Assembly (NCBI RefSeq): GCF_000263735.1
Contig: NC_017946.1
Span: 351,348 to 415,347 of the forward strand
Direction: 5' to 3'
DNA from: Pyrococcus sp. ST04
Lineage (GTDB): Archaea > Methanobacteriota_B > Thermococci > Thermococcales > Thermococcaceae
Length of the DNA: 64,000 bases
Part shown: positions 53,217-54,987 of the stretch, piece after piece
Layout: each line of letters begins with the position of its first letter
Position numbering within the stretch: position 1 is the first letter of the stretch
Program-made: the position numbers and the translations under genes
The notes under the pieces: generated by a model
Told to the model about the DNA's origin: nothing
The model's input: only the letters and a program-made list of their open reading frames with translations
Database searches by the model: none

Positions 53217-53248
53217 ACATTCGCCAAATAACTAGAAAGGTGGTGATT

Positions 53249-53701
53249 ATGGCTGAAATCTTAGACAGGGTAGATAGGAGATTGCTTGAAGAACTAAAGA
53301 ATAATGCGAGGGAAAATATAGCCGCGTTAAGTAAAAAGCTTGGGATACCCAGGACAACTGTCCATTACAGAATCAAAAGGCTAGTTGAAGAGGGGATAAT
53401 AGAGAAGTTCACTATAAAGCCGAACTACAAGAAGCTTAACCTTGGAACCACAGCATTCATCTTGATAAGATATGATCCAGATTCTGGGTTGACTCAAAGG
53501 GAAGTAGCTGAGCAGATAGCTAAAATCCCGGGAGTTTATGAAGTACACATCATCGCTGGAGAGTGGGATCTTCTATTAAAGGTTAGAGCCTCTAATGCGG
53601 AGGAAATTGGTAAGATAGTAATAGATAGGCTCAGAGAGATTAAAGGGGTTGGCCAGACTGTGACAATGGTTTCCTTTGTTACAGTGAAGGAAGAAATTTA
53701 G
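53249..53701 (+). CDS. lrpA: Lrp/AsnC family transcriptional regulator
   Basis: 150-aa Lrp/AsnC regulator: HTH (ENIAALSKKLGIPRTTVHYRIKRLVEEGIIEKF) and a C-terminal RAM domain (GVYEVHIIAGEWDLLLKVRA). It looks like the P. furiosus LrpA type, which represses its own gene. ATG 53249 follows GGTGGTGA. A C/D sRNA starts at the first base after the stop codon. Confidence 0.9.
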   Translation: MAEILDRVDRRLLEELKNNARENIAALSKKLGIPRTTVHYRIKRLVEEGIIEKFTIKPNYKKLNLGTTAFILIRYDPDSGLTQREVAEQIAKIPGVYEVHIIAGEWDLLLKVRASNAEEIGKIVIDRLREIKGVGQTVTMVSFVTVKEEI

Positions 53702-53758
53702 AGGCGATGATCGACGTTCTCCTTGCTGAGCTATGATGATGCGAGGTTAGGTGAGCCT
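53702..53758 (+). ncRNA. Box C/D sRNA with a covarying C/D K-turn pair
   Basis: Terminal stem AGGC (53702-53705) pairs with GCCT (53755-53758). C box ATGATCG (53707-53713), D' box CTGA (53726-53729), C' box ATGATGA (53733-53739) and D box GTGA (53751-53754). Guide spacers are 12 nt (53714-53725) and 11 nt (53740-53750), and D' to C' spacing is 3 nt. C box position 6 is C instead of G while D box position 1 is G instead of C, which restores the K-turn pair. Guides predicted 2'-O-methylation of targets reading CAAGGAGAACGU (fifth base G) and CUAACCUCGCA (fifth base C). Confidence 0.78.
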
Positions 53759-53766
53759 TTTTAAAT
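53758..53766 (+). promoter_or_regulatory. TATA-like box of the RlmI-like methyltransferase gene
   Basis: TTTTTAAAT lies 31-39 bases before the ATG at 53797. Its T run also directly follows the sRNA, so it may double as the end signal for lrpA-sRNA transcription. Confidence 0.45.
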
Positions 53767-53796: not shown

Positions 53797-54987
53797 ATGG
53801 CGAGGGTAGTTGTTGATGCCCAAGCTGCGAGAGCCATAGGAAAAGGTGCAATGATAGTCTTCAAGAAGGGTGTCGTTAGGGTTGAAGGTGAGGTAAAGCC
53901 AGGTGACATTGTAGAAGTTTACACACGTGGCGGAAAGTTTTTAGGAAAGGGCTTTGCGAATCCAAACTCTAACATAATGGTGAGGATAGTTACCAAGGAT
54001 AAGGACGTTGAAATAAACAAGGATCTTTTTAGGGAAAGGATAAAAAAGGCAAACGACTACAGAAAGAAAGTTCTTAGGTATACAAACGTCTATAGAATGG
54101 TATACGGTGAAGCTGACTACCTTCCAGGATTGATAGTGGACAGATTTAACGACATAGCTTCTCTACAGATATCCAGTGCGGGCATGGAGAGATTTAAGAT
54201 GGATGTCGCGGAGGCTATAATGGAAGTTGAGCCGGAGATTGAAACTGTATTCGAGAAGAATACTGGAAGGAGCAGAAGAAGAGAAGGATTGCCAGAAATA
54301 GAGAGGGTTCTTCTAGGGAAGGAAAAATATAGGACAATAATACAAGAAGGAAGGGCCAAGTTCATTGTAGATATGAGAGGTCAGAAGACGGGGTTCTTCT
54401 TAGATCAGAGAGAAAACAGACTTGCCCTAGAAAAATGGGTAAAACCAGGGGACAGAGTTTTGGATGTTTTCACATATACAGGTGGATTTGCAATTCATGC
54501 AGCAATTGCTGGGGCTGAAGAAGTTATAGCAATTGATAAATCTCCAAGGGCTATAGAGACCGCGAAAGAAAATGCCAAATTGAATGGCGTTGAGGACAAG
54601 GTTAAGTTTATTGTGGGGAGTGCATTTGAGGAAATGGAAAAGTTACAAAAGAGGGGAGAGAAGTTTGACATAGTCATTCTCGATCCTCCAGCATTCGTTC
54701 AGCATGAAAAAGACCTTAAAGCTGGATTGAGGGCATATTTTAACGTAAACTTCGCTGGTCTTAACTTAGTAAAGGATGGTGGGATTCTAGTTACGTGCTC
54801 ATGCTCTCAGCACGTGGATCTCCAGATGTTTAAAGATATGATAATAGCAGCAGGAGCCAAGGCTGGAAAGTTCCTCAAGATGCTAGAACCTTACAGAACC
54901 CAAGCTCCAGACCACCCCATACTTATGGCGTCCAAGGATACTGAATACCTCAAATGCCTGTTCCTTTATGTTGAGAATATGCGCTAG
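53797..54987 (+). CDS. SAM-dependent RNA methyltransferase with PUA domain (RlmI-like, m5C type)
   Basis: 396-aa class I methyltransferase. N-terminal PUA-like RNA-binding domain (about 1-80), a linker domain, then a Rossmann fold: VLDVFTYTGGFAIHAAIAG, ILDPPAFVQ and the catalytic VTCSCSQHV. This layout matches 23S rRNA m5C methyltransferase RlmI and its Pyrococcus homologue. ATG 53797 follows GGGGGTTGAG; a longer in-frame start at 53785 is less likely. The end overlaps the convergent USP gene by 4 bases. Confidence 0.9.
   Translation: MARVVVDAQAARAIGKGAMIVFKKGVVRVEGEVKPGDIVEVYTRGGKFLGKGFANPNSNIMVRIVTKDKDVEINKDLFRERIKKANDYRKKVLRYTNVYRMVYGEADYLPGLIVDRFNDIASLQISSAGMERFKMDVAEAIMEVEPEIETVFEKNTGRSRRREGLPEIERVLLGKEKYRTIIQEGRAKFIVDMRGQKTGFFLDQRENRLALEKWVKPGDRVLDVFTYTGGFAIHAAIAGAEEVIAIDKSPRAIETAKENAKLNGVEDKVKFIVGSAFEEMEKLQKRGEKFDIVILDPPAFVQHEKDLKAGLRAYFNVNFAGLNLVKDGGILVTCSCSQHVDLQMFKDMIIAAGAKAGKFLKMLEPYRTQAPDHPILMASKDTEYLKCLFLYVENMR

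Follow-up and report, generated by a model that had tools for sequence, protein, structure and literature searches.

A 56-base element directly behind an Lrp/AsnC-family regulator gene of Pyrococcus sp. ST04 is very probably an archaeal C/D box sRNA, presumably derived from the lrp mRNA, that guides 23S rRNA ribose 2'-O-methylation near the peptidyl transferase centre, with Gm2681 as its predicted product and, less securely, Cm2611. It represents a near-universal Thermococcales C/D sRNA family of ordinary mechanism that is missing from Rfam. The window, the whole stretch of DNA analysed, spans 64,000 nucleotides (positions 351348-415347 of a 1,736,885-bp genome in one contig), and the locus contains the following features.

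53240..53701, + strand: Lrp/AsnC-family regulator gene, probable start ATG 53249 (Pfam AsnC_trans_reg and HTH_24)
53702..53757, + strand: C/D box guide sRNA, 56 bases, of a family without an Rfam entry
from 53702, + strand: AGGC, 5' end of the sRNA (from sequence)
53703-53705 and 53755-53757, + strand: terminal stem, GGC paired with GCC (from sequence)
53706-53708, + strand: GAT bulge of the terminal K-turn (from sequence)
53707..53713, + strand: C box ATGATCG, base 6 (53712) being C (column T 50, C 36 in 86 copies)
53714..53725, + strand: D' guide ACGTTCTCCTTG, 12 nt, predicted Gm2681 of 23S rRNA (presumably E. coli 2568)
53726..53729, + strand: D' box CTGA (sequence and 86-copy alignment)
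between D' box and C' box: GCT linker (from sequence)
53733..53739, + strand: C' box ATGATGA (sequence and 86-copy alignment)
53740..53750, + strand: D guide TGCGAGGTTAG, 11 nt, tentatively Cm2611 of 23S rRNA (presumably E. coli 2498)
53751..53754, + strand: D box GTGA, base 1 (53751) being G, partner of C 53712
53758..53766, + strand: TTTTTAAAT (from sequence only)

The sequence-only reading had proposed that all parts of a C/D guide RNA are present at the right spacing, with C at position 6 of the C box and G at position 1 of the D box, and every box, both guides (12 and 11 nt) and the two bases (53712 and 53751) can be read directly in 53702-53757. The terminal K-turn consists of the GGC/GCC stem, the GAU bulge, G.A and A.G pairs, a U.U pair and then C53712-G53751. 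The C/D motif can form a K-turn and the C'/D' motif a K-loop, each with two sheared G.A pairs, as expected of the class, and the C6-D1 pair in the window is C-G, in keeping with the Watson-Crick pair expected of an archaeal C/D box sRNA. L7Ae would bind both the K-turn at C/D and the K-loop at C'/D', and Nop5 and fibrillarin would then join. An alternative C box, GCGATGA at 53704-53710, was rejected as it leaves 15 nt up to the D' box and creates a G.G mismatch with the D box.

At the DNA level, a search recovered the locus from 85 of the family's 94 genomes, and the similarity in BLAST matches to Thermococcus stops at the 3' end of the RNA (query 138, window 53757), its last paired base. We built a covariance model from 16 copies. 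With scores of more than 50 bits it detected homologues in 88 of the 94 genomes, with one strong copy in each, and it gave no match in 21 genomes of the phylum sample outside the family; matches below 37 bits resemble other C/D RNAs. A pattern scan of the genome contigs returned 23 matches, all in Thermococcales assemblies. The family is thus conserved across six genera with the same synteny, and the boxes are invariant or nearly so in an alignment of 86 copies (69 distinct rows). Two finished genomes, G006 and G016, lack the sRNA, which indicates that it is dispensable. The sequence behind the lrp gene in G006 (L033) is unrelated to the sRNA; this complete genome keeps both 23S sites and is a natural loss mutant.

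None of the Rfam 15 sR families reached its gathering cut-off for the window or its orthologues. The best scores, 23.4 bits to sR1 (RF01152) and 22.4 bits to snoPyro_CD (RF00095), reflect the same box layout, but they lie far under the gathering score of 45 and the guides differ from those of the lrp sRNA. A literature text search with the letters of the RNA returned unrelated matches only; another published list, such as a supplementary table, may already name this RNA.

The orthologue in Thermococcus kodakarensis has been sequenced as RNA. Table 1 of PMC9014305 lists a 61-nt circRNA, "TK2109", at 1894519-1894579, with 28 circular reads among 14,240 from small RNA and 857 among 1,092 from total RNA; its circles nearly disappear without the RNA ligase TK1545, and RT-PCR failed to confirm the circle. 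We read this interval on the G023 assembly in KOD1 coordinates, where the 23S rRNA gene (2024590-2027618) agrees with the table. Its minus strand, AGGGCGATGATCGGCGTTCTCCTTTCTGATTTGTGATGATGCGAGGTTTGGTGAGCCCTAC, contains the sRNA orthologue base for base. The protein gene named TK2109 lies on the opposite strand to the sRNA and ends at 1894522, so that the sRNA is antisense to its last bases. C/D homology was noted for all such circles, but "TK2109" was classed as protein-coding (PMC9014305); as published, it stands outside the authors' C/D sRNA count and carries neither guide targets nor an alias. The small RNA on which the sequence-only reading had staked its case is therefore on record for the orthologue, whose published reads document a stable species within the expected 50-70 nt. 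Two other circRNAs listed under protein genes in the same table, TK0058 and TK2034, bear C/D sRNA aliases, which suggests that more circRNAs may be mislabelled. The low scores against the generic Rfam C/D models (22-23 bits, below gathering) might be expected of a chance resemblance in an intergenic spacer, as might single-strand folding no better than that of shuffled sequence (z -0.15), although weak folding is the expected behaviour of C/D RNAs. Such a coincidence is vanishingly improbable in view of the covariation, a sequenced RNA and conservation over six genera in exact synteny, and the RNA-seq reads of the orthologue already refute it.

The C6-D1 pair shows strong covariation. In the 86 copies it is U-A 37 times, C-G 36 times, U.C 12 times and U.G once, and never G-C. 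It is paired in 89.9% of the 69 distinct rows, 30 of which differ from the commonest pair on both sides, and its covariation score is 0.819 versus 0.432 for shuffled columns (0/500); the double changes vanish when the partner column is slid. The lrp gene tree requires about 11 changes of state, compared with 36.8 when the labels are shuffled. With midpoint rooting, U-A occupies the deepest group, the pair has switched between U-A and C-G several times, and the ancestral pair was likely U-A. We conclude that the pair is selected and that, as far as the data reach, it did not originate from G-C inside the family. The sequence-only reading held that both bases had changed together from the usual G-C and that this argues for a real, selected K-turn. 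The repeated covariation on the tree justifies the word compensatory and the pair has been kept through double changes, but the supposed G-C starting point occurs in no copy. The 12 unpaired U.C copies carry the textbook D box CTGA, which indicates that pairing is favoured and not essential. The pair (4b-4n of the K-turn) would thus be held as C-G or U-A by double substitution, without change to the U.U pair or the sheared G.A pairs. Such tolerance fits the report that L7Ae folds K-turns of the same class irrespective of which pair follows the G.A pairs, a result obtained for the 3b,3n position (PMC5061560).

The swap had also been called uncommon, which proved correct, but it is not unique, being common to the whole family and to sR38. 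Among 47 other C/D RNAs of the same genome, compared by eye, all but one have G6-C1, a rarity that is approximate because the RF00095 search used to collect them favours canonical boxes. The exception is sR38 (RF01121), whose terminal K-turn (GGCGATGATT...ATGAGCC) carries the reversed pair U-A. Its guides are different and the lrp sRNA scores 13 bits to RF01121; paralogy of the two is possible. We regard the swap as real, shared, tolerated and not exotic. That pyrimidine-C6/purine-D1 RNAs (the sRNA family and sR38) form a functional K-turn subclass, selected against G-C for, e.g., assembly order or circularisation, as opposed to drifting along a ridge of paired states, seems unlikely.

Targets were predicted by the +5 rule. 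The D' guide forms 11 bp (one G.U) with 23S 2678-2688, which predicts Gm2681; it thus has the features expected of a guide, namely a length of about 10-12 nt and an rRNA or tRNA complement whose target lies opposite the fifth nucleotide upstream of the D or D' box. The rRNA complement of at least 9 nt that the sequence-only reading proposed to look for is therefore present, at 11 nt. The 10-nt core CGTTCTCCTT is invariant in 86/86 copies, the flanking guide positions vary, and the 23S site is identical in 20/20 sequences examined. Among shuffled guides, 31/1000 match at least as well, and the pairing taken alone is only moderately significant.

The D guide forms 7 bp with 23S 2610-2616, which predicts Cm2611. 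Over the whole rRNA this match is at chance (529/1000 shuffled guides), while 953/20000 do as well within 100 nt of the D' site. This chance-level score, together with free variation in the 3' half of the guide (86 copies), could mean that only the D' guide acts on 23S rRNA and that the D guide either lacks a target or serves tRNA-Ala(CGC), a possible but doubtful reading. In a scan of the tRNAs, tRNA-Ala(CGC) was the only one to equal the rRNA match (7 bp, CCUCGCA, in the anticodon region). It is the less plausible target, as the +5 rule points to an unusual site, the nucleotide just 5' of position 32, and the guide base opposite A37 is unconserved. The divergent D guides of two genera, moreover, still match 23S 2604-2628: that of genus g4 forms 8 bp with 2604-2611 (50/20000) and that of genus g6 forms 10 bp, one G.U, with 2619-2628 (27/20000). 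These matches to the same loop support a role on 23S rRNA with shifting sites, and judging from the guide sequences the D guide may have been retargeted to nearby nucleotides in these genera. In genus g4 (L100, L102-L106 and L108) the D guide has been exchanged and in most carries GTAGCAAG, which overlaps the segment served by the D' guide of sR3, an apparent retargeting by 5 nt.

sR3 (RF01133) resembles the lrp sRNA as a double guide on the same 23S loop and the A-loop region, but it has a canonical G6-C1 pair, addresses other nucleotides and lies at another locus. Under the same scoring, sR3 of the same genome is predicted to target C2604 (10 bp) and U2665 (11 bp); it lies at L161 1501-1555 (1014933-1014988 of its own genome) and is a clean double guide whose targets bracket the D site of the lrp sRNA. 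We take 23S U2665 to be E. coli U2552, and the presumed E. coli equivalents of the two lrp sRNA sites, 2568 and 2498, follow from this A-loop anchor with an offset of 113. The 23S-guide reading of the lrp sRNA thus has the D' guide directing Gm2681 and, less securely, the D guide directing Cm2611, with neighbouring nucleotides predicted in other genera. RlmM is the enzyme that forms Cm2498 in E. coli (PMC11542601). RiboMeth-seq data for P. furiosus are available as GSE153501; PMC7758197 itself gives no values for individual sites, and PMC4644070 contains nothing on Pyrococcus.

The stop codon of the lrp gene (TAG) ends at 53701 and the sRNA begins at the next base, exactly as first described. 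The gene name lrpA given in that description is not established, since the product scores 56.7 bits against an NCBIfam LrpA cut-off of 250. Aligned homologues follow this same lrp gene, the first base of the sRNA lying -2 to +20 nt relative to its stop codon; one copy, L009, was missed by the synteny motif search, and inspection by eye shows its stop and spacing to be the same. The gene 3' of the sRNA varies, and a PUA-domain RNA methyltransferase gene (53797-54984 in the window) follows it only in Pyrococcus. The product of that gene has as its best NCBIfam match the 23S C1962 m5C methyltransferase, at 308 bits and below the cut-off of 575, and scores 223 bits to the C2499 methyltransferase model, whose namesake site adjoins the predicted D-guide target, probably by coincidence.

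A constant upstream regulator gene and a variable downstream gene would also be expected of a K-turn-forming element of the lrp 3' UTR through which L7Ae regulates either the stability of the lrp mRNA or the next gene, and L7Ae is reported on mRNA K-turns (PMC5539422). Such an element is very unlikely to account for the invariant D' core complementary to invariant rRNA, for two K-turn motifs with guide spacings typical of guide RNA, or for the processed 61-nt species that accumulates from the T. kodakarensis orthologue. For a guide RNA, the fixed position behind the lrp stop points to processing from the lrp transcript, the presumed host, whose mRNA 3' end would be the source. Archaeal C/D RNAs are often promoterless and carried on the transcripts of adjacent genes (PMC7994747), so this biogenesis would be ordinary. 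Nucleases would trim the transcript to an RNP-protected RNA of about 56-61 nt, part of which the RNA ligase Rnl would circularise. The adjoining TTTTTAAAT may be the TATA box of the next gene and/or the T-rich end of the lrp-sRNA transcript; a scan with bacterial patterns only found no promoter or terminator support there.

These results give a well-studied archaeal order a near-universal guide RNA absent from Rfam, and they identify, and predict targets for, a published circRNA that had been recorded under a protein gene. The C6-D1 variants C-G, U-A, U.G and U.C provide a series of natural mutants of the K-turn pair, which prediction programs assume to be Watson-Crick; the K-turn test of SnoReport demands such a pair between C-box nucleotide 6 and D-box nucleotide 1 (quoted in PMC7994747). 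The sRNA also leads to two methylation predictions for the surroundings of the peptidyl transferase centre, both open to test.
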